A stretch of DNA of 28,858 nt, from positions 1-28,858 of IMG/VR virus record IMGVR_UViG_3300021957_000214. The stretch is one strand, 5' to 3'. The notes beneath the pieces were generated by a model. It was not told the origin of the DNA. It did no database searches and saw nothing but the letters and a program-made list of their open reading frames with translations. Shown here piece after piece: positions 4,265-28,807 of the stretch; the stretch's first letter is position 1; the number at the start of each line of letters is the position of its first letter. The stretch is from a virus. The position numbers were made by a program, and so were the translations under genes.

Positions 4265-5032
4265 TCATCTCCATATAGTTTTAGCTAATTTAATTTCATC
4301 TTCTCCCCACAACCATGAGTCATAGTTAGGATAAAATAAACTTGCTATTTGGTTTTTATCATTTGAATAAGAAAGCAGGTTCATGATAGCCATCGCCACG
4401 CTTCTTACAGTTTTAATATGCTCGTCAATATTCTCAACTTGCATACTTATCATCTCTGCTTTTTTAGTAGTTACGTATACATAATCAACCATAGCATCAC
4501 AATTTTCAGCTTTGGCGTATATAGACAACTGCCTATTAACAGTATCAGGAATAGCACTAGGCAACCGACTAACAGTCTTTATGTCTCTTACTAATCCTTC
4601 ATATTGCAAATCTATATATCCCAAAATATCAACAGGGATATCATCTATCTGCAATCTTATTTCCTTTTGATAGGAAACTGGTTTACCCATTTCTTGATAA
4701 TACGGTATCGCAGTATCAAGATATCTAGGTATTAAATCTCTTTCTTTAGCTAACTTGAATGTATTCACTTCATGTTCTTTAGCTGTATATTCATATAAAC
4801 CATCAAATCTAGCTATGGCATTTTTTATTATTTTTTTATTGTTTTTTTTAGTGGTTAATGCTTCACCTATACCTTCATCAACAACAGTTCCTCTCCACAT
4901 AGCAGGGTTACTAGCACTTCTATGCTTGTATAAATATCTCATAATAAACATACAAGGGTCTTGTATGTAAGTGTTTATAGATGATGCTGATAGATGCTCT
5001 ATATCGTGTGTTACAAACGGATTATTGCTCAT
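4265..5032 (-). CDS. PD-(D/E)XK exonuclease, Cas4/RecB-like
   Basis: A 255-residue nuclease likely to resect double-strand ends for the adjacent annealing protein. The N-terminus HLSASSINTYIQDPC is the usual RecB/Cas4 entry motif. RGTVVDEG (47-54) occupies the motif-I position, with Asp52 where a His is common. ILGYIDL supplies the catalytic Asp141. VRDIKT gives Asp150 and Lys152 of the (D/E)XK motif. NRQLSIYA (Gln168, Tyr172) is the QxxxY motif. The C-terminus ends in a Trp-rich stretch and lacks the cysteine cluster that makes Cas4 an iron-sulfur protein. It is the first gene of the minus-strand recombination operon, divergent from the regulator at 5115. Confidence 0.85.
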   Translation of the reverse strand: MSNNPFVTHDIEHLSASSINTYIQDPCMFIMRYLYKHRSASNPAMWRGTVVDEGIGEALTTKKNNKKIIKNAIARFDGLYEYTAKEHEVNTFKLAKERDLIPRYLDTAIPYYQEMGKPVSYQKEIRLQIDDIPVDILGYIDLQYEGLVRDIKTVSRLPSAIPDTVNRQLSIYAKAENCDAMVDYVYVTTKKAEMISMQVENIDEHIKTVRSVAMAIMNLLSYSNDKNQIASLFYPNYDSWLWGEDEIKLAKTIWR

Positions 5033-5114: not shown

Positions 5115-5345
5115 ATGAAATTAAAACAATACTTACTAAACAACAAGCACACTCAAAGTTCTTTTATTGATGAAATAGAAATGGCTAAAGGAATAAAAGT
5201 ACCACAAGGCACATTAGCTAAGTGGATATTAGGAGCGAGAATACCGAGAAAAGAAGAGATGCTTATAATATATGATGTAACAGAAGGAAAAGTTCAACCT
5301 AATGATTTTTATGGTGTAACGCCACCTATATGGAGTAAAGAATAA
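5115..5345 (+). CDS. Cro/CI-type helix-turn-helix regulator
   Basis: A 76-residue DNA-binding protein, the size of lambda Cro-class repressors. The helix-turn-helix spans roughly residues 14-48, with QSSFIDEI as the first helix and VPQGTLAKWILGARIPRKEE as the recognition helix and turn, followed by a Cro-like end (QPNDFYGV). The start is placed at ATG 5115 because the homologous-looking part begins there; the open frame continues upstream through the promoter. No Shine-Dalgarno is visible. It divides two divergent operons and overlaps the ParB-like gene by one base (TAATG), so it is the likely regulator of both. It may act at the TTTGGAATA/TATTCCAAA boxes found elsewhere in the window; this is inference. 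Confidence 0.75.
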   Translation: MKLKQYLLNNKHTQSSFIDEIEMAKGIKVPQGTLAKWILGARIPRKEEMLIIYDVTEGKVQPNDFYGVTPPIWSKE

Positions 5346-5980
5346 TGCAGTATCAAGTTGATTTATTAAATGTCAAAGATTTAAAAGAATATGAAAACAA
5401 CCCTCGTATCAATAAAAAATCTATAGAAAAAGTAGCAGATAGCATCAGGTCTTATGGTTGGAAAGTCCCTATAGTTGTAGATGAAGATATGGTTATTTTA
5501 GCAGGGCATACTAGATTAAGTGCGGCGAAGTTGCTGAATATAAATGAAGTTCCAGTTCATATAGCTAAAGATTTAAGTGAAGAACAAAAAACTGCTTTCA
5601 GAATTATGGATAATAAATCACAAGATTATTCTGAATGGGATAATAAACTTTTAGGACTTGAGTTTGAAAAGTTATCTACTAGTAATTTTGAATTAGATAT
5701 GACTGGATTTAATTTAGAAGAAATTAATAAAATTACAGATGGTGTTTTTTTAGAGTTTGATTCACCCGATTTAGAGATGTCTGAAAATGACTGGCAAGTT
5801 GACGACGTTCATATACCTGAAACTAACGTAAAACAATTTATGTTATTATTCAACATGAACGATATTGAAGAAATAAAAAAAATGGTAGAAGTGCTTCGTG
5901 ATATATATAAAATTGAAAGTCCATCAGATATTATTTTTGAAGCAGTAAAAAATGAATACAAAAAAAATACCAATTTATAA
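5345..5980 (+). CDS. ParB/Srx-like domain protein heading the DNA-modification operon
   Basis: The N-terminal 100 residues form a ParB N-terminal-like domain: NNPR (18-21), KVADSIRSYGWKVPIVVD, and the signature GHTRLSAAKLL (54-64, equivalent to the G-x-R-x-x-A nucleotide-binding motif of ParB), then EEQKTAFRIMDNKS. In phages this domain is often fused to, or encoded with, DNA base-modifying enzymes. The C-terminal half is acidic and unfamiliar, and no methyltransferase domain is attached. It starts at the TAATG overlap with the regulator and overlaps the dioxygenase gene by 29 bases. A DNA-scanning or NTP-dependent guiding role for the modification enzymes is plausible; plasmid-style partition is less likely in this context. 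Confidence 0.75.
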   Translation: MQYQVDLLNVKDLKEYENNPRINKKSIEKVADSIRSYGWKVPIVVDEDMVILAGHTRLSAAKLLNINEVPVHIAKDLSEEQKTAFRIMDNKSQDYSEWDNKLLGLEFEKLSTSNFELDMTGFNLEEINKITDGVFLEFDSPDLEMSENDWQVDDVHIPETNVKQFMLLFNMNDIEEIKKMVEVLRDIYKIESPSDIIFEAVKNEYKKNTNL

Positions 5981-6896
5981 TCTAAAACCTAAATGCACAT
6001 TTGAAGAGTCACAAGCGTTTGCAGGAAAGTACGCAACTGACAAAGATTATTCATTAGTAATAAGAGATGATTGTGACGCTTACAAAGAAAATGGTGAGCC
6101 TTTATTTTTTTATCGTAAAAACCGAATACCTTCTGAAATATGTAAAACAGCCTACAAGAACCTTAGACACGCGGCAACCCCAACAGAGAACAGAGGTATG
6201 GCAGCAGGACCGCTTGATACAGATGAGCATATAAATCATAAACAACAAAGCACACACAGATTTCAAAGAATAAAACCTGATGGAACACTAAGTCGTGTTA
6301 CTAGGTCTAAAAAAGTTAAATCAGGTATAGCGGGTTACTTTGATAGAAACGCTAGATTCCCATATTGTAGACAAACAGCTTTCACTGAAAAGAATAGAAA
6401 AGAATTTTTGGCTTCAATGCCTTACTTACAAGGCATAAGCTCTCTTTTCAAAGAAGCTTGTCCTGAGAGATATAATAATCAATATGAATATGCTAAAAAA
6501 ACTAATAAAGATTTCTTAATTACAAACACAGTTTTCAGCACAATAACTGTAAACAAAAACTTTCAAACTGCTTATCATACTGATGCAGGTGATTTAAAAA
6601 CTGGATTAGGCAATATAGCTGTTCTAAAAGCAGGTAAGTATGAAGGCGGTTATACCGTTATACCTAGATATGATTGTGCTTTTGATTTAGGTAGCGGAGA
6701 TGTATGTTTTTTTGATGTTCATGAATATCATGGCAATACTAAATTAATTGCTAAAACGCCTTTTGAAAGGATATCTGTTGTTTGTTATTACAGAGAAAAT
6801 ATGGCTGATTGCGGTAGTATGCAAGAAGAATTAAAAAAAGCAAAAAATAGAAAAGCAGGAGACAGTCTTGGAAGAAAATCGGCAACTGCTAAATGA
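5952..6896 (+). CDS. TET/JBP-family 2-oxoglutarate/Fe(II) DNA dioxygenase
   Basis: Predicted to hydroxylate the 5-methyl group of a pyrimidine in DNA (thymine to 5-hydroxymethyluracil, or 5-methylcytosine to 5-hydroxymethylcytosine). The 314-residue protein has the full double-stranded beta-helix signature of the family. Iron ligands are His209 and Asp211 in YHTDAGDL and a distal His in DVHEYHGN (His260). The 2-oxoglutarate-binding Arg273 lies in FERISVV. Between them lie 'GLGNIAVLKAGKYEGG' and 'SGDVCFFD', also typical of TET/JBP. The N-terminal 190 residues include basic segments likely to bind DNA. It overlaps its neighbours by 29 bases on each side. No cytosine methyltransferase or hydroxymethyl-dUMP synthase is present here, so thymine is the favoured substrate (inference). 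Confidence 0.88.
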   Translation: MNTKKIPIYNLKPKCTFEESQAFAGKYATDKDYSLVIRDDCDAYKENGEPLFFYRKNRIPSEICKTAYKNLRHAATPTENRGMAAGPLDTDEHINHKQQSTHRFQRIKPDGTLSRVTRSKKVKSGIAGYFDRNARFPYCRQTAFTEKNRKEFLASMPYLQGISSLFKEACPERYNNQYEYAKKTNKDFLITNTVFSTITVNKNFQTAYHTDAGDLKTGLGNIAVLKAGKYEGGYTVIPRYDCAFDLGSGDVCFFDVHEYHGNTKLIAKTPFERISVVCYYRENMADCGSMQEELKKAKNRKAGDSLGRKSATAK

Positions 6897-9006
6897 AGAT
6901 ACGCGAGACAGCGTAATACCTGAAGGAGCTAAAAACTGGGGAGATTATCTTTATACCCATACTCCAGTAGAGCAAAAATCAGATGGTGTTTACTATAAAA
7001 GGGAAGATAAATTTTCTTTATTTGGCATAAATACTTTAAATGGTGCTAAATGTAGACAGTTACTATATTTATTTGAATCAAGGCCTAAAGGCGTAGACAC
7101 TGTGGTTCATGGAACAAACGTGAACGCATCACCACAAACTCCTATGACCGCAGCTATAGCAAAACATTATGGGTTAAGATGTATTCAAGTAGCAGGTGGA
7201 ACTAATTTTGAATCTATTTCACAAAAGAATTTACCTTTGTTTGCCACAATGTTTAATACTGAATATGACTTATCATGTCGTAGCGGTTTCAACGTTGGTG
7301 TTCAAAAAAGAGTACAAACGATTATGAAAGATTTTGATAATTGCTTCACTATAGAAAGAGATATAACTTTAGACCACAAGCTTTCAACTAACACGGTTTC
7401 AGATATTAGGTCTTTTCATGAAGTTGGTGCTTGTCAAGTTCAAAATATACCTGACCACATTGAAGATATAATTATACCTTTCGGCTCAGCAAATTCAGCA
7501 ACTTCTATATTGTTAGGCTTATCTATGCACAAGCCGAGAAACGTCAAACGGATTTATTTGATAAATGTAGGTGTTGATAAAAGAAATTTTATGTTTCAGA
7601 GATTGAAACTTATGGAAGCAGATGTGTCTTCTTTTGAGTTTGTTTGGCACGACACTAAAGAGCCTTACAGCAAACTTTACAAAGGAGTACAACAAGACGA
7701 TATAACATTTCATCCAAGATATGAAGCTAAAACTATTTTATATATAAGGAAAAATTTACCTGAACTTATTAAAGACACTACTTTATTTTGGAATATTGGC
7801 TCTTACCCTGATATTAATACAACAGCTAAAAATGCTAATCTTACTATACCTAAAAAAGTTAAAGAATATTCTATATCTACTGATAAAAAATTAGGTACAT
7901 ACTGCGATATAAATAAAATCACAGAAGTTAAAAACCTTGAATATGGAATGGATTTTAGAGAACCTAAATATCGTAGAGAAGTTTTTTTGAGGTTTTATGA
8001 ATTTCATTTAAAACATAAAAGCCATCCTGGTGGAGTGTATTTTGCTTTTCCTTGGTTAACTAAGAAATATTCATTAGACACAGAACAACAGCTATGGCTA
8101 GCATTTATAAATGGATGCTCACAAAACATAATAACCTCTTGGCACATATTTAATAAATTTCCAGAACCTGTTGGATTAGATTTAGATTTAGTAGACGAAT
8201 GGTGGAATGTAACACAGCATAAATTCAAGGCAGGTTCAGGATGGGATTCTGATAGAAGATATTTTAAAGCAGGAAAAACTGGCCTACCTAATTGTATGCG
8301 TTCTTATATTAATCAAGTTAATAAATTCGGCAACCAAGAAGAAATGTTTAAATCTTTATGTGTACATAATGACCCTAACAGTAATTTTGAAAAGGTATGG
8401 GATTTTGTTAAAAATAATTTTTTATCGTTTGGCAGATTATCAACATTTTCTTATTTAGAATATCTGCGTATACAAGGATTGAATATTGAATGTAATAATT
8501 TATTCCTAGATGATATAAGCGGTTCACGTTCGCATCGTAACGGACTCTGCATAGTTCTTGGAAGAGATGATTTAGACTGGTACAAAACTAAAGTAACCTA
8601 TAATAAAGAAACTACTGACTGGTTGAGTGATGAAGCTGAATTGTTGTTGAAAGAAGCTAAAGAACGATTACCTAACGAAGATGTAAGTTATTTTACATTA
8701 GAGTCAACACTTTGTAATTATAAATCTTGGCATCGTCCGAACCGCAGATACCCTAATGTTTATATGGATATGTTCTATAATAGAATTAAATATGCAGAAA
8801 AAGAATGGGGTGAAGAAGAAGGTAAAATATTTTGGGAAATGAGAAAAGATTGTTTACCTAAAGCATTAAGACTTGAAGACAATAAAAAAGATATAGGCCT
8901 TTGTCCTGAAAAACAAAATCATTATTTGCTTACTGGTCAACCAGTCATGATGGATAGTGAGTGGGATTGCTTCAAAAACGATTATAACCGTTTGATTAAT
9001 TCATGA
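6868..9006 (+). CDS. PLP-dependent enzyme fused to an aGPT-type pyrophosphorylase (base hypermodification)
   Basis: A 712-residue two-domain protein. Residues ~20-340 resemble fold-type II PLP enzymes (ACC deaminase/cysteine desulfhydrase kind): YYKREDKFSLFG, the probable Schiff-base Lys61 in LNGAKCRQLLYLF, HGTNVNASP, and a phosphate-binding loop FGSANSATS. Residues ~355-705 resemble the alpha-glutamyl/putrescinyl-thymine pyrophosphorylase family of helical, glycosylase-like proteins: GVYFAFPWLTKKYSLD, 'LAFINGCSQNIITSW', LDDISGSRSHRNG, LESTLCNYKSWHR, FWEMRKDCLPKALRLE. Members are proposed to displace the phosphate of phosphorylated 5-hydroxymethyluracil with an amine or amino acid. The start is TTG 6868, with AGGAGA five bases upstream; no in-frame ATG fits. 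It overlaps the kinase gene at ATGA. The order of reaction between the domains is inferred. Confidence 0.8.
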   Translation: MEENRQLLNEDTRDSVIPEGAKNWGDYLYTHTPVEQKSDGVYYKREDKFSLFGINTLNGAKCRQLLYLFESRPKGVDTVVHGTNVNASPQTPMTAAIAKHYGLRCIQVAGGTNFESISQKNLPLFATMFNTEYDLSCRSGFNVGVQKRVQTIMKDFDNCFTIERDITLDHKLSTNTVSDIRSFHEVGACQVQNIPDHIEDIIIPFGSANSATSILLGLSMHKPRNVKRIYLINVGVDKRNFMFQRLKLMEADVSSFEFVWHDTKEPYSKLYKGVQQDDITFHPRYEAKTILYIRKNLPELIKDTTLFWNIGSYPDINTTAKNANLTIPKKVKEYSISTDKKLGTYCDINKITEVKNLEYGMDFREPKYRREVFLRFYEFHLKHKSHPGGVYFAFPWLTKKYSLDTEQQLWLAFINGCSQNIITSWHIFNKFPEPVGLDLDLVDEWWNVTQHKFKAGSGWDSDRRYFKAGKTGLPNCMRSYINQVNKFGNQEEMFKSLCVHNDPNSNFEKVWDFVKNNFLSFGRLSTFSYLEYLRIQGLNIECNNLFLDDISGSRSHRNGLCIVLGRDDLDWYKTKVTYNKETTDWLSDEAELLLKEAKERLPNEDVSYFTLESTLCNYKSWHRPNRRYPNVYMDMFYNRIKYAEKEWGEEEGKIFWEMRKDCLPKALRLEDNKKDIGLCPEKQNHYLLTGQPVMMDSEWDCFKNDYNRLINS

Positions 9007-9530
9007 AATGTGTAGCTATAGGCGGAGTACCCGCTACAGGTAAAACCACACTAATGAAAAACATTATCAGTATATTAAAACCAAAAAAAAAGTTTAAATT
9101 TGGTCTACTTAGAGGTTACATGCAAGAAAATATTTCTATATTAGGAGTATATGAACCTAATGATGTTTTTGGGGGTACAGACAAGTTATCTATGGCGGTT
9201 CAAAAAGACTATCAAAAATATATAGATAAAATAATGATTAACACAATATTTGAAGGGGATAGGTTATTTACTAAGAATAATCTTCTTGATATTTGTCAAA
9301 AATATGAAACAAAAATTATCATATTAGAAAATGATAAACAAACTTTGAAAGACCGTCACATAGAAAGAGGTGACAATCAAAGTGAGAAATTCAAGAAAGG
9401 CAGAGCAACAAAGATAAACAACATAGAACTTGAAAAGGAACTGCAACCTTACATAACTAAATATAAATTAAACAGTCACAAAGATAGCAAAGAGTTAGCT
9501 GAATTAATTGTAGAATATCTTATTCACTAA
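9003..9530 (+). CDS. P-loop 5-hydroxymethyl-base DNA kinase (HMUDK-like)
   Basis: A 175-residue P-loop kinase with Walker A GGVPATGKTTL (residues 7-17). Next come LRGYMQEN, the distinctive 'GVYEPNDVFGGTDKLSMAVQ' resembling 5-hydroxymethyl-deoxyuridine DNA kinases of hypermodifying phages, an acidic Walker-B-like strand NTIFEGDRLF, and a lid with ERGDNQSEKFKKGRATK. In that pathway the kinase phosphorylates the hydroxymethyl group in DNA, making the leaving group used by the pyrophosphorylase. The ATG overlaps the TGA of the fusion gene, placing it directly after the enzymes that precede and follow it chemically. Its end overlaps the convergent primase-helicase gene by 11 bases. It could instead be another nucleotide/nucleoside kinase, but the motif and context favour this call. 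Confidence 0.82.
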   Translation: MKCVAIGGVPATGKTTLMKNIISILKPKKKFKFGLLRGYMQENISILGVYEPNDVFGGTDKLSMAVQKDYQKYIDKIMINTIFEGDRLFTKNNLLDICQKYETKIIILENDKQTLKDRHIERGDNQSEKFKKGRATKINNIELEKELQPYITKYKLNSHKDSKELAELIVEYLIH

Positions 9531-14492: not shown

Positions 14493-15702
14493 CTGGTTAA
14501 GCACCGCAAGAGATAAACAGATACAACCGAAGTTCATAGAACATTATATTTGGTTAATACTTGCAGGTCGTGGTTGGGGAAAAACTAGGACTGGTGCACA
14601 GGACATAGCACTTTATGCTTTGAGAAACCCTGATACTAACTGTGCGGTAGTTGCTCCGACACATGGAGATTTAAGGCGTGTATGTTTCGGTGGTGAAAGT
14701 GGATTGTTAAGCGTTATACCTAAAGAATGTTTATTAGAATCAAAAGATCAAAAAGGTTACTCATCAAGTGTATCTGAAATAAGATTATTTAATGGTTCTA
14801 AAATTACAGGTTATGCGGCACAAGAACCTGATAGATTAAGAGGACCACAATTTCATAGAGCTTGGTGTGATGAAATAGCGGCTTGGAGATATCCTGAAGC
14901 ATTTGATCAATTAATGTTCGGTCTAAGGCTAGGTGATAAACCTCAATGCGTAATAACTACTACACCTAAACCCACTGCACTAATAAAAGATTTAGTACAA
15001 AGAGAAGATGTCCATGTTACATCTGGAAGCACATTTGAGAACGAAGCAAACCTCGCTGAAAGTGCTTTGGCTATGTTGAAAGATAAATATGAAGGAACAA
15101 CTTTAGGTAGACAAGAGTTATATGCAGAAATAATAGAAAACCTTGAAGGTGCATTATGGACTAACGATTTAATTGAAGAAGCAAGGATATCAGATGATGT
15201 TGATAAAGAACTTACACAAATAATAGTAGCTGTAGACCCTGCGGTGACTGCTAATGCAAATTCAGATGAAACTGGTATAGTAGTTGTAGGTAAAGATTAT
15301 AATAACGAATTCTATGTATTAGAGGATTTAAGCGGTAGGCATAAAGCAGATAAATGGGGTAGAATAGCAATTAATGCTTTTTATGAATGGGATGCAGATA
15401 GGATAGTGGCAGAGACCAATAATGGCGGTGACTTAGTTGAAAGGTTAATAAGAAATATTGACCCCAATGTTGCTTACAGGTCTGTTAGAGCTACAAGAGG
15501 TAAGATTTTAAGAGCAGAACCCATATCAGCGTTGTATGAACAAAGAAGGGTACATCACATGGGTGTGTTACCTGAGTTAGAATCACAGATGTGCAGTTAT
15601 ACAGGAGATACAAATAGTTCACCCGATAGATTGGATGCTTTAGTTTGGGGATTAACTGAATTAAGCAAGTCTAGGGGACAAGTAAACTGGAGAATAACCT
15701 AA
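14389..15702 (+). CDS. terL: Terminase large subunit
   Basis: The packaging ATPase and DNA-cutting nuclease. Walker A is LAGRGWGKTRTG (Gly60-Thr66 in the longest form), Walker B is RAWCDEIAAW (Asp161, Glu162), and a coupling motif follows near VITTTPKPT. The C-terminal RNase H-like nuclease has the first acidic strand 'IIVAVDPAV' with DETGIVVVG, then 'RIVAETNNGGDLV'. Starting at ATG 14389 gives 437 residues but a 104-base overlap with TerS and no ribosome site. TTG codons at 14443 or 14452 are alternatives with GGAA-like sequences upstream and would still keep the conserved 'NWLSTARDKQIQP' part. The portal start overlaps the stop (TAATG). Confidence 0.93.
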   Translation: MQQSTKTQTKRSEKLWNSLTKLKTAEQKAFKLRTNWLSTARDKQIQPKFIEHYIWLILAGRGWGKTRTGAQDIALYALRNPDTNCAVVAPTHGDLRRVCFGGESGLLSVIPKECLLESKDQKGYSSSVSEIRLFNGSKITGYAAQEPDRLRGPQFHRAWCDEIAAWRYPEAFDQLMFGLRLGDKPQCVITTTPKPTALIKDLVQREDVHVTSGSTFENEANLAESALAMLKDKYEGTTLGRQELYAEIIENLEGALWTNDLIEEARISDDVDKELTQIIVAVDPAVTANANSDETGIVVVGKDYNNEFYVLEDLSGRHKADKWGRIAINAFYEWDADRIVAETNNGGDLVERLIRNIDPNVAYRSVRATRGKILRAEPISALYEQRRVHHMGVLPELESQMCSYTGDTNSSPDRLDALVWGLTELSKSRGQVNWRIT

Positions 15703-17618
15703 TGGCAATATTAGACAACATCAAAAATATATTTACAACAAAACCAACTGAACAAAAAAACTCAAATATGATGGGTTATTTTGGAGTTGGTACAGAAGAA
15801 GCTAAGATTTATAAATATCAAGACTTAGCTAAAGAAGGATATCTGAAAAACGCTATCGTTTATAGATGCGTTAATGAAATATCTAAGGGTGCAAGTGCTG
15901 TACCCTTACTTCTCAAAAATGGAGATGAAATTGTTGAACAACACCCAATCATTGATTTACTTAACAGACCTAACCCTTTACAGTCCTACTCAGAGTTTTT
16001 TAATTCCTTATTTGGTTATGTGCTTCTTAGTGGTAATGCTTACATCCTCAAAGTAGGCAACGAGTTAGGAGCACCAAAAGAACTACATCAATTAAGACCT
16101 GATAGGATAGTAATTAAAGGCAATGGAAATGCTTTACCTGATAGATATGAATATATGCTAAATGGCAGAGTTCAAAATACATATCTTGTAGACCAACTTA
16201 ATGGTTATAGTGAAGTTAAGCACGTAAAATTATGGAATCCACTTGATGATTATTATGGACTTTCACCAATGAGTGCGGCCGCTGTAGAGGTAGACCAGTT
16301 TAATATGTCTAGTAAACACAATGTTAACTTACTAAACAATGGAGCAAGACCAAGTGGTGCTGTTATATTTAAACCACAAGATGATGCAGGATTCGCTGTA
16401 AACCTAACAGAGTCACAAAGACAGCAATTACTAACAGACCTTAACAATAGATTTAGTGGAGCAGGTAATGCGGGAAGACCTATGTTACTTGAAGGTGATT
16501 TTGATTGGAAAGAAATGGGTTTGACTCCTAAAGATATGGACTTCCATAGATTGAAGAACATGGCCGCAACTGATATAGCTTTATGTTTCGGCGTCCCCTC
16601 GCAGCTTGTAGGCGTTCCTGATGCACAGACCTATGCCAATGTATCAGAAGCTAGACTAGCTTTATATGAGGAAACTATTATTCCACATCTTAGAAAAATA
16701 GAATCAGACTTAAATGAATGGTTGATTCCTCTTTATGACGACAGGTTGTCTTTACAATTTGATATAGATTCTATACCAGCATTATCAGAAAGAAGAAGAA
16801 AGACTTATGAAAATGTAACCAGTGCTGTTCGTGAAGGTATTATGACTAGAAACGAAGCAAGAGAATCTATAGGCTTATCACCAATAGAAGGTGCTGACGG
16901 ATTATATATATCAGCAAACTTATTTCCTTTGACTGATGATGATGTTCCAGAAGTAGAAAATCCTTTAAATCAAGAGGATTTAGATGAATATGTAGATGAA
17001 GATGAAGTTGATAAAGAAATAAACTTTCTAATACAAGAAGAAAAAGCATTGTCAGATATAAATACAGTCCCAACTGATGCAATGGCAACTGAAGCACAAA
17101 GAGGTTTGAACTGGCGTAGAGAATTTAAAAGAGGTGGAACTGAAGTCGGTGTTGCTCGTGCAAATCAATTAATAAAGAAAGAAAACTTATCTACTGATAC
17201 AGTTAAAAGAATGTTTAGTTATTTTTCAAGACACGAAGTTGACAAACAAGGTAAAGGATTTAAAAAAGGCTCAGAAGGTTATCCAAGTGCAGGAAGAATA
17301 GCATGGGCGTTATGGGGTGGCGATGCAGGGTTTGGATGGTCAAGAAAAGTTAGAAATCAAATACAAAACCAACTTGATGGAAAAGCTGAAGCAGGTAGTC
17401 TAAAAGTAGGTGATATGGTTTCTTGGAATAGTTCAGGCGGTAGAGCTAGAGGTAAGATTAAAAGTATCGTAAAAAGCGGTAAGTTAAAAGTGCCTAATGC
17501 TGATTTTACTCTTAATGCAACAGAAGATAATCCTGCCGCACTTATAGTAGTCTATCAAGGCGGTGAACCATCAGACGTAATCGTAGGACATAGATTTGCT
17601 ACTCTAAGAAAACTTTAG
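15702..17618 (+). CDS. HK97-family portal protein with a long C-terminal two-domain extension
   Basis: Residues ~1-410 are a HK97-type portal, the dodecameric gate for DNA: 'LKNAIVYRCVNEISKGAS', LLNRPNPLQSYSEF, LSGNAYILKVG, 'YYGLSPMSAAAVEVDQ', and 'FGVPSQLVGVPDAQTYANV', ending near 'EARESIGLSPIEGADGLY'. An acidic linker (430-455) follows. Then comes a ~105-residue domain (TEAQRGLNWRREFKRGG, VARANQLIKKENLS, SAGRIAWALWGGDAGF), and last a DUF2945/Tudor-like domain (~565-630: KVGDMVSWNSSGG, ARGKIKSIV, ATEDNPAALIVVY). At 638 residues it is about 200 longer than an average HK97 portal. The extra domains may contact DNA or the neighbouring head proteins; their role is unknown. Confidence 0.92.
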   Translation: MAILDNIKNIFTTKPTEQKNSNMMGYFGVGTEEAKIYKYQDLAKEGYLKNAIVYRCVNEISKGASAVPLLLKNGDEIVEQHPIIDLLNRPNPLQSYSEFFNSLFGYVLLSGNAYILKVGNELGAPKELHQLRPDRIVIKGNGNALPDRYEYMLNGRVQNTYLVDQLNGYSEVKHVKLWNPLDDYYGLSPMSAAAVEVDQFNMSSKHNVNLLNNGARPSGAVIFKPQDDAGFAVNLTESQRQQLLTDLNNRFSGAGNAGRPMLLEGDFDWKEMGLTPKDMDFHRLKNMAATDIALCFGVPSQLVGVPDAQTYANVSEARLALYEETIIPHLRKIESDLNEWLIPLYDDRLSLQFDIDSIPALSERRRKTYENVTSAVREGIMTRNEARESIGLSPIEGADGLYISANLFPLTDDDVPEVENPLNQEDLDEYVDEDEVDKEINFLIQEEKALSDINTVPTDAMATEAQRGLNWRREFKRGGTEVGVARANQLIKKENLSTDTVKRMFSYFSRHEVDKQGKGFKKGSEGYPSAGRIAWALWGGDAGFGWSRKVRNQIQNQLDGKAEAGSLKVGDMVSWNSSGGRARGKIKSIVKSGKLKVPNADFTLNATEDNPAALIVVYQGGEPSDVIVGHRFATLRKL

Positions 17619-26352: not shown

Positions 26353-28807
26353 TCCAGTAGACACATTACTAGTTGAGATAAGAGCCGAAACTGCCCAATT
26401 AAAAAAGGGTTTGGATAAGGTAAACAAACAACTAGATAAAACTAAGAAACAATCAGGTGCGGCAGTCAATGCCCTAAAAGGTTTTGGTTCTATTATAGCG
26501 ACTCTAGGTTTAACTAGACTGGTCGGCGATACTATAAACACAATAAGAACATTTGAAGACTTAGAAGCCACACTAACAGCCATAACAGGAAGTGCAAAAA
26601 CAGCGGCACTTTCTTTTGATTTAATTAGACAATTTACCTCAAAAACAACATTCCAACTTGAAGGAGTGGCTGAAGCATTTATAAGTTTACTTCAAGCAGG
26701 TGTAACGCCTACTGAAGAAGCTTTGAGTGACTTCGGTAATCTAGCCGCAGCATTCGGTAAAGATATATCACAAGTAGCACAAGCAACCTTTAGAGCAGTT
26801 ACTGGTGAGATGGAGATGTTGAAACAGTTTAACGTAGTTGCTAAATTAGAAGGCGATAAAGTTAGAGTTACTTTCGGTGGTGTAACAAAAGAAATAGAAA
26901 GAAATGGTACTGCTATAGCAGAATATTTAAGAACATTAGGAAGAGAAAATTTCCCAACAGCTTTAGAAGATAGAGCAAACACACTTTCAGGTGCAATATC
27001 TAACGTCAGTGATGGTGTTGCTGAGTTTATGGTTTCTATAGGTGAAGGTGGCCTTAAAGATTCTTTAGTAACTATAGCAAGAGAGATGAGGAAAGTCCTT
27101 GATGAAGCTAAACCACTAGCAGAAGCAATAGGTGCAGTGTTAGGAACAGCTGTAAAGATATTCGGTACAGCTTTAATACTTGTAATTGAAAACTTTAAAA
27201 TATTATTGTCTTTAATAATGGCTAAAGCATTCAGTATGCTACCTGCAGCATTTATAGCGACAACAACAGCGGTAAAAGGTTTAAATATTTCTTTAGCAAC
27301 CACAAATTTACAACTTGCAAGAATGACAAAATTCTTGAAAGCATCAAAACTTACAGTTCTATTAGCAGGTATAGGTCTGTTAACAGTACCCTTATATAAC
27401 TGGGCAACAGCTGAAGAAGAAGTTAATGAAGAACTAGATGAGACTATTGATAAGTCAGCAGAACTTACTAAAGCATTAGCTAAACCTGTTCCATTCATGG
27501 ATAGGCTAGGTAAAAAAACTAAAGATACATTAAAGTTTTTGCAAGAGTTTGGAACTGTAGCTAAAACTACTGACCAAAAAATAAGAGAATTCGCAGATGG
27601 AGGTATGGCTGATTTAGAAAAGATGGCATCTGCTTTCGTAGGTGAAAAGTTTGAGATTGCTTTTAGTGGTTTTGTTGGTCCTATTGATGATAAAGCTATA
27701 CAGCAGTTTAACAAAGATATGAGAGATTCTTTCTTCAAAGAGACTTTTGGTGCTGATGAAGATACAGTAATGAAAAGAATAGGTCTTATGCCTGTTGGGG
27801 AAATACAAGGTGCTATTAAAAACGTACAGGGTGTCATAAATAAAGAACTTGACCCTAAAGGAATAAAAATATATCAAGACCTATTAAATGATGAAACTAA
27901 ATTAGCAGACTTTTTTAAATTAGCAGGTTCAGAAGCGGCATTTTTCGGTAAAGATATAGATGAAGTAGAAGCTATTTTACAAAAGTTTGTTAACGACGCT
28001 CTAAACCCAACTAAGCTAACTAAAGCTGAAGAATCTCTAAGAGCCATATTTGATTCTGGTGCCGAAAGTGACATGGAAGTAGCTACAGGCATAGAAAATA
28101 TAGATGAAGCTTTAGCAAACTTACACGCAAAGTTGTTATTAGTTGACGAAGGCTTTGCTAAATCTGGAATATCTGTAGATGAGTTTGTTGCACAATATAA
28201 TAAAGGCGTTGATAGTATGTCTAAAAAGACAGAAGACCTTGTTCCAACTCTAAGCGGTGAACTTAAAGATGCTATTACACAAACAGCTAATGCTTTTTCA
28301 AACGAATTTGTTGACTCTTTAGCTGAAGGTCAAGGTGCTTTAGAGTCATTTAAAGACTTTTCCGACAATATAGTAAAACAAATCATTTCAATTTTCATAC
28401 AACTAGCTGTAGTTAATAGAATATTAAATGGCATATTTGGTGCAGGTACTTTTGACCAAGTTGATTTTAAGGGTGGTAAGGCAAACTTTAGAGAAGCTCA
28501 AAGGAAAACTGCAGGTGGCGGTGCAGCTTTTAATAGTCAGGCCATGTTAGTAGGTGAACGTGGTCCTGAAATATTTGTTCCACATTCTAATGGTAATATT
28601 TTAAATAATATGAATAGCAAAAATGCTATGGGTGGTGGTGGAACTACAGTAATAAATCAATCTATAAATTTTGCTACAGGCATAGTTCCAACTGTAAGGG
28701 CAGAGGTTACAAAGATGATGCCACAGATAGCAGATGTAACAAAAGCGGCAGTACAAGAATCAGCAATGCGTGGTGGTAACTTTAGAAGGAGTCTAGTCGG
28801 TGGGTAA
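26345..28807 (+). CDS. Tape measure protein
   Basis: An 820-residue tail length-determining protein. The N-terminus is a coiled coil (ETAQLKKGLDKVNKQLDKTK), followed by 'TINTIRTFEDLEATLTAITG' and 'FNVVAKLEGDKVRVTFGG', typical of tape measures. The centre has hydrophobic helices (GTALILVIENFKILLSLIM; VLLAGIGLLTVPLYNW), and the C-terminal region has 'FKDFSDNIVKQIISIFIQ' and 'SQAMLVGERGPEIFVPHSNG', a common C-terminal tape-measure block. With the usual rule of about 0.15 nm per residue, the tail would be near 120 nm. It overlaps the frameshift product by eight bases. Confidence 0.93.
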   Translation: MANPVDTLLVEIRAETAQLKKGLDKVNKQLDKTKKQSGAAVNALKGFGSIIATLGLTRLVGDTINTIRTFEDLEATLTAITGSAKTAALSFDLIRQFTSKTTFQLEGVAEAFISLLQAGVTPTEEALSDFGNLAAAFGKDISQVAQATFRAVTGEMEMLKQFNVVAKLEGDKVRVTFGGVTKEIERNGTAIAEYLRTLGRENFPTALEDRANTLSGAISNVSDGVAEFMVSIGEGGLKDSLVTIAREMRKVLDEAKPLAEAIGAVLGTAVKIFGTALILVIENFKILLSLIMAKAFSMLPAAFIATTTAVKGLNISLATTNLQLARMTKFLKASKLTVLLAGIGLLTVPLYNWATAEEEVNEELDETIDKSAELTKALAKPVPFMDRLGKKTKDTLKFLQEFGTVAKTTDQKIREFADGGMADLEKMASAFVGEKFEIAFSGFVGPIDDKAIQQFNKDMRDSFFKETFGADEDTVMKRIGLMPVGEIQGAIKNVQGVINKELDPKGIKIYQDLLNDETKLADFFKLAGSEAAFFGKDIDEVEAILQKFVNDALNPTKLTKAEESLRAIFDSGAESDMEVATGIENIDEALANLHAKLLLVDEGFAKSGISVDEFVAQYNKGVDSMSKKTEDLVPTLSGELKDAITQTANAFSNEFVDSLAEGQGALESFKDFSDNIVKQIISIFIQLAVVNRILNGIFGAGTFDQVDFKGGKANFREAQRKTAGGGAAFNSQAMLVGERGPEIFVPHSNGNILNNMNSKNAMGGGGTTVINQSINFATGIVPTVRAEVTKMMPQIADVTKAAVQESAMRGGNFRRSLVGG

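Follow-up and report, generated by a model that had tools for sequence, protein, structure and literature searches.

In the DNA of kuttervirus Vi01 about 40% of thymine is found as 5-NeOmdU (PMC11721090), and in such phages 5-hydroxymethyldeoxyuridine (5hmdU) within DNA receives a phosphate from a 5hmdU DNA kinase, amination being the next step (PMC6449724). Gene clusters for base hypermodification had been predicted in phages earlier (Iyer 2013, as cited in PMC6449724) and, in 2025, a five-gene thymine hypermodification system, of predicted function, was reported for Rhodococcus phage Tonitrus (PP978825; PMC11955845). Here we analyze a stretch of 28,858 bases from a marine bacterial virus, IMG/VR virus record IMGVR_UViG_3300021957_000214, hereafter called the window, which carries at positions 5115 to 9530 a chain of five overlapping genes on the plus strand. 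We consider it likely that these genes form a phage DNA hypermodification operon acting after replication, in which a TET/JBP dioxygenase would produce 5-hydroxymethyluracil (5hmU) from thymine, and the modified base would then bear in turn a phosphate, an amino acid and an amine. This succession of oxidation, phosphorylation, substitution and remodelling by a pyridoxal phosphate (PLP) enzyme had been put forward in the original prediction, made from the window alone, and is supported by family assignments, by the fold of the kinase, by homology to phage ViI proteins and by the co-occurrence of the genes.

Gene order and enzyme families

The chain is headed by a gene for a helix-turn-helix (HTH) regulator of 76 aa (5115..5345), with a weak match to HTH_3 (0.012) and matches to phage-repressor PHROGs, and continues with a ParB-like protein of 211 aa (5345..5980), a TET/JBP 2-oxoglutarate/Fe(II) dioxygenase of 314 aa (5952..6896), a PLP enzyme/amino-acid:DNA transferase fusion of 712 aa, with a TTG start (6868..9006), and a P-loop kinase of 175 aa (9003..9530). 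Successive genes overlap by 1, 29, 29 and 4 bp: the ParB-like gene starts on the final base of the HTH gene, 29 bp are shared by TET and ParB and again by fusion and TET, and 4 bp by kinase and fusion. Both coordinates and overlaps had been given correctly, to the base, in the original prediction. The HTH open reading frame is listed from a GTG at 4971; its true start is probably the ATG at 5115, because the relative in contig L006, also 76 aa long, begins at the equivalent ATG. The order HTH-ParB-TET-fusion-kinase is retained in the IMG/VR relatives L006 and L008/L009, and the arrangement is not due to chance.

The C-terminal half of the fusion (residues ~359-705, 7942..8982) matches the ADDT family, PF18724, with 87.4 bits at a cut-off of 26.2 (1.6e-24, residues 398-625), and aGPT-Pplase3 more weakly, with 32.8 bits at a cut-off of 25: the protein had been predicted as a PLP-aGPT fusion, and while the fusion stands, the second half is better filed as ADDT. 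The N-terminal half is a fold-type II PLP domain (residues ~24-311, 6937..7800), which matches phrog_3650 at 8.8e-63 over residues 22-262, a profile common to ViI-type PLP proteins, and is 31-37% identical to the PLP proteins of ViI-like phages, 31% to ViI Vi01_182/orf00226. ViI orf00247 matches the same PF18724 at 3.2e-58. Judged by sequence, each half of the fusion has its homologue in a separate protein of ViI, the PLP half in orf00226 and the ADDT half in orf00247. The PLP half falls in the D-cysteine desulfhydrase/ACC deaminase group, D-cysteine desulfhydrase being found both by profile (3.6e-8) and by Foldseek (4.1e-8).

The ADDT half is modelled by AlphaFold2 (AF2) as all-alpha, with a predicted local distance difference test score (pLDDT) mostly above 90; the underlying alignment comprised fusions and ADDTs only, and the PLP half of the model is less certain. 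A sequence search of the PDB with the ADDT profile gave no match. Among the scored contigs, the fused form is confined to the window clade and contig L046. Lee and colleagues reportedly identified ViI gp247 as an amino-acid transferase and gp226 as a PLP decarboxylase, and by analogy the PLP half probably carries out a decarboxylation. A host defence role for ADDT was also considered, and is unlikely because the family was found in just two bacterial contigs, both from metagenome-assembled genomes.

Placement of the kinase by Pfam, PDB sequence and NCBIfam searches produced generic P-loop matches alone, along with a weak similarity to AAA_18. Its AF2 model (pLDDT 95.1) was more informative: Foldseek against BFVD retrieved the 5-hmdU DNA kinases of PhiW-14 (2.8e-6, template modelling (TM) score 0.64) and SP10 (1.7e-5, TM 0.66), while PDB matches, to nucleotide and O-phosphoseryl-tRNA kinases, reflect a general likeness, with best TM values of about 0.55-0.59. 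The fold is thus nearer to the named 5-hmdU DNA kinases than to any PDB nucleotide kinase, a structure search having been among the checks originally proposed. The enzyme is predicted from its model to be a 5-hydroxymethyluracil DNA kinase, on a branch outside the Pfam HMUDK models; the earlier label of HMU kinase therefore agrees with fold and gene company, and not with sequence family.

The dioxygenase scores 92.8 bits against PF12851 (1.7e-26), above the curated cut-off of 34.9, and is accordingly a Tet_JBP member; it is 50.5% identical to the TET of HTVC112P. Its HxD...H...R catalytic set (H209, D211, H260, R273) is complete, the iron-binding H209-T-D211 motif being encoded at 6576..6584. 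The ParB-like protein matches PF02195 (6e-7) and phrog_620 (1.6e-46), and also resembles the ParB domains of DNA methyltransferase fusions (phrog_498, 6.6e-41; PADLOC MTase_II, 8.7e-23); when the cassette was compared with anti-phage defence models, this domain, as a methylase-fused domain, was the sole match. ParB adjoins TET in 92 of 116 TET loci, which, together with its kinship to methylase-fused domains, suggests a general accessory role of the ParB domain in base modification, and the window protein is a probable DNA-binding accessory of the system.

All these motifs are intact, as originally predicted. In 115 of 115 relatives TET keeps N201, H209, D211, H260 and R273; K61 (NGAKCRQ, codon at 7048..7050), the lysine predicted to bind PLP, is identical in all 74 PLP homologues; G8, G13 and K14 of the kinase P-loop, within the Walker A motif GGVPATGKT (residues 7-15, 9021..9047), are present in 44 of 44 sequences; and 23 columns are invariant in a 39-sequence ADDT alignment. 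Compared with L006, to which TET is 93% and the fusion 88% identical, the ratio of nonsynonymous to synonymous substitution rates (dN/dS) is 0.14 for ParB, 0.047 for TET, 0.049 for the fusion and 0.18 for the kinase: the four genes are therefore under purifying selection. Partial cassettes do occur (4 contigs have ParB-TET alone and 3 have ParB-TET-kinase), and the window operon might likewise be a decayed or incomplete one whose product stops early, at 5hmU or phospho-5hmU for instance; with all catalytic residues intact and dN/dS values of 0.05-0.18, we regard this as the most improbable of the alternatives considered.

Gene company and the choice between thymine and cytosine

Co-occurrence was evaluated in 157 distinct contig clusters, gathered by scanning IMG/VR with profiles of ADDT, TET and PLP, and from phage records, and scored with home-made hidden Markov models; counts over this set are biased by the search seeds, those of a scan with the kinase profile alone (A9) less so. 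TET was found in 117 clusters, in 90 of them with ADDT, in 87 with both ADDT and kinase, and in 48 with PLP; the commonest gene order, ParB-TET-ADDT-kinase, was observed 36 times. The cassette is widespread among marine virus contigs. In the kinase-only scan, ADDT was found in 78 of 80 loci and TET in 59. In each of the 20 ADDT-bearing loci devoid of TET, the sequence upstream of ADDT breaks off within 1.3 kb, TET being present in every ADDT-bearing locus having room for it. Neither thymidylate synthase (TS) nor cytosine C5-methylase was detected in the flanks of these 80 loci.

This company also bears on the idea that the substrates of kinase, PLP enzyme and transferase are free nucleotides or other small molecules, in salvage or amino-acid metabolism, their closeness to TET being incidental. 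The kinase does resemble nucleoside monophosphate kinases, and PDB structures similar to the PLP domain include D-cysteine desulfhydrase and ACC deaminase, but the near-constant pairing of kinase and ADDT, the homology of both fusion halves to modification-linked ViI proteins, and the TM values of the kinase, about 0.65 to 5-hmdU DNA kinases versus about 0.55 to PDB nucleotide kinases, make such a role very unlikely.

Whether TET acts on 5-methylcytosine (5mC) or on thymine had been left open in the original prediction, and the comparative data favor thymine. C5-methyltransferase (PF00145) and TS (PF00303) were both absent from the whole window record and from the genomes of phages Zemanar, Tonitrus and Kozie; in 50 TET-bearing relatives PF00303 was likewise absent, and a single weak fragment of C5-methyltransferase was found. 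In related loci, ADDT is associated with an adjoining kinase and with either TET or a TS-type front end. Among ADDT records, TS occurs in 0 of 39 with TET versus 19 of 28 without (Fisher p 2.9e-10, without a correction for relatedness), and no TET was detected in the 47 non-TET records searched. In the ADDT tree, TET- and TS-partnered proteins interleave, with at least 7 parsimony changes, as expected if ADDTs have switched repeatedly between the two. Most simply read, TET and hydroxymethylase are two alternative sources of one intermediate, 5hmU in DNA. Mutual exclusion of the front ends, near-absence of C5-methylases and repeated switching of ADDT thus concur in making thymine in DNA the most likely source of the 5hmU produced by TET.

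TET proteins classically act on 5mC, and phage TETs accompanied by C5-methylases exist. The same enzymes might work on cytosine, 5mC made by the host, or by an unseen phage enzyme, being oxidized to 5-hydroxymethylcytosine and then phosphorylated and aminoacylated to yield a hypermodified cytosine. A setting of this kind is found in Methylophilales phage Melnitz-3 (L015:4010-8090), where an HhaI-type C5-methylase, a TET, an unassigned 427-aa protein and a kinase of the same family as that of the window lie in one cluster, which probably represents the cytosine counterpart of the pathway. No ADDT was detected nearby, and the kinase is therefore no proof of a thymine substrate. TET active-site residues were tried as a discriminator, without a decision: residue 214 varies between Asp and Asn over the set, being Asp both in the window TET and in the methylase-linked TET of Melnitz. 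Set against the lack of a C5-methylase in the window and in Zemanar, Tonitrus and Kozie, its near-absence from the 50 TET records, and the fact that related ADDTs keep a TS-type hydroxymethylase and HMUDK_hel in place of TET, a cytosine substrate appears unlikely, although less so than the small-molecule role.

The thymine reading has other observations to contend with, besides Melnitz and position 214, which we list here as weighing against it. Several nodes of the ADDT tree have low support, and some branches are long. Caulobacter phage Cr30 carries TET, ADDT and kinase plus a canonical TS. The window kinase matches neither PF18723 (HMUDK_hel) nor PF18747 (HMUD2), and its profile comparison with ViI orf00243, a HMUD2 protein, is weak, with a probability of 35%. 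Fold-type II PLP enzymes mostly catalyze eliminations or deaminations, and the decarboxylation proposed for the PLP half leans on the reported work on ViI. Finally, the record is linear, with no repeats at its ends, and some genes may be missing from it; for the same reason the operon, originally described as self-contained, cannot be fully demonstrated to be so.

As to Cr30 itself (L014:9522-11656), its ADDT matches at 1.3e-52, and it also carries a window-type kinase and a weak TAGT-like protein; it is the only tested record combining TET and TS.

Proposed pathway and genomic setting

In the pathway that we propose, the ParB-like protein would bring the system to DNA, or pick the sites to be modified; TET/JBP, a clear family member, would oxidize thymine in DNA at its 5-methyl group, giving 5hmU; the kinase would phosphorylate the hydroxymethyl group, as its fold suggests; the ADDT half would swap the phosphate for an amino acid, in keeping with its family; and the PLP half, by homology, would trim the amino acid, probably through decarboxylation, so that the base is left with an amine. 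In essence, a ViI-type back end would be served by a DNA-level TET oxygenase in place of the nucleotide-level hydroxymethylase and, transferase and tailoring enzyme being fused, the product may pass directly from one to the other. The amine-bearing thymine would shield phage DNA from host nucleases, and such protection is the most likely purpose, by analogy with other hypermodified phages.

A more far-reaching version we hold only tentatively: the TETs of this clade may be thymine dioxygenases which, acting on finished DNA, replace the hydroxymethylase, possibly at sites chosen by ParB, so as to produce a site-selective hypermodification, the fused enzyme making in one step an amino-modified base, possibly an undescribed one. 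If the proposed pathway is right, phages would dispose of two interchangeable front ends, namely 5-hydroxymethyl-dUMP made before replication and TET oxidation of thymine in DNA after it, the latter allowing the phage to choose its modification sites. Phage TETs would then be the equivalents, in viruses of bacteria, of the base J oxygenases of trypanosomes, and the fused transferase-PLP enzyme a useful tool for adding amines to DNA.

The rest of the window contains terminase, portal, prohead protease, major head, tail and tape-measure genes, and on this gene content is taken to derive from a tailed phage, the tail genes being of siphophage type; no known phage has a terminase more than 51% identical to the one encoded here. 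Beside the operon, on the opposite strand, lie genes for a PD-(D/E)XK nuclease (PF12705, 4265-5032) and a DUF968 protein (2595-2939). The C-terminal end of the portal protein (15702-17618) matches Hva1_TUDOR (PF11160, 1.7e-7), which is unusual for a portal, and a 381-aa open frame antisense to the tape-measure gene (26692-27837, minus strand) is probably a shadow frame.

Comparison with described systems

The enzyme families are each known already, and the gene combination is not new either: Tonitrus (PMC11955845) and Zemanar-type mycobacteriophages carry related sets. Tonitrus shares with the window a ParB-like protein, a TET-like J-binding protein, an aGPT-Pplase2/ADDT-type transferase, a kinase from the window kinase's family, at 24% identity, and the absence of C5-methylase and TS. 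Its genes are, however, separate, its transferase belongs to another branch, for which BLAST gave nothing significant against the window, no PLP domain was found in it, and its fifth gene encodes a different protein. Mycobacteriophage Zemanar (Coopervirus) has in genes 1-4 the order ParB-TET-ADDT-kinase, and its ADDT and the C-terminal half of the fusion share 38% identity; no PLP half was found in this phage. A related cassette is present in Microbacterium phage Kozie.

In Zemanar (L012:785-3465) TET is annotated as queuine tRNA-ribosyltransferase, the kinase as terminase small subunit and the ADDT as hypothetical, and the PHROG names 6059 and 800, corresponding to TET and kinase, look like misannotations. 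The presence of the cassette, under such names, in cultured mycobacteriophages makes the proposal directly testable.

Salmonella phage ViI, the 5-NeOmdU type, shares homologues of both fusion halves with the window, PLP orf00226 (31%) and ADDT orf00247, but as separate genes; its 5hmU derives from a nucleotide-level TS-type hydroxymethylase, its kinases belong to the HMUD2 and HMUDK_hel families, and no TET was found in this type, as checked in IMG/VR relatives. In the whole window record, by contrast, a search for PF18723 gave nothing, and neither the nucleotide-level TS-like dUMP hydroxymethylase distinguishing the ViI/M6 type nor the C5-methylase distinguishing TET-with-cytosine-methylase systems was found. 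Glutamicibacter phage Montesquieu is similar in ADDT (40%), PLP (27%) and kinase (25-28%), but features TS hydroxymethylase and HMUDK_hel instead of TET, with PLP and ADDT as separate neighboring genes. In Montesquieu (L004:935-1909) and similar TS-type contigs, "aGPT-Pplase clade 1" proteins match PF18723 HMUDK_hel; TS-type contigs also carry window-type P-loop kinases, while the tested TET-type records have the P-loop kinase only.

Nonlabens phage P12024L, which combines TET with a TET-associated glycosyltransferase (TAGT), has a TET 39% identical to that of the window, and the ParB-TET start is common to contigs of the glycosyltransferase type; the cassette ends, however, in a glycosyltransferase (PF20691 TAGT) rather than in kinase and amino-acid transferase. 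In eight IMG/VR contigs with close TET relatives (L097, L100, L102, L105, L107, L154, L164 and L175), a TAGT-like glycosyltransferase takes the place of ADDT and kinase, and a search of these records for cytosine C5-methylase found none; a base-J-like route, leading to glucosyl-5hmU, is possible in phages of this type.

Relative to all these systems, what is new, as far as could be checked, is the near-absence of cytosine methylase, the mutually exclusive front ends with their repeated switching, the kinase branch with its link by fold, and the fusion itself.

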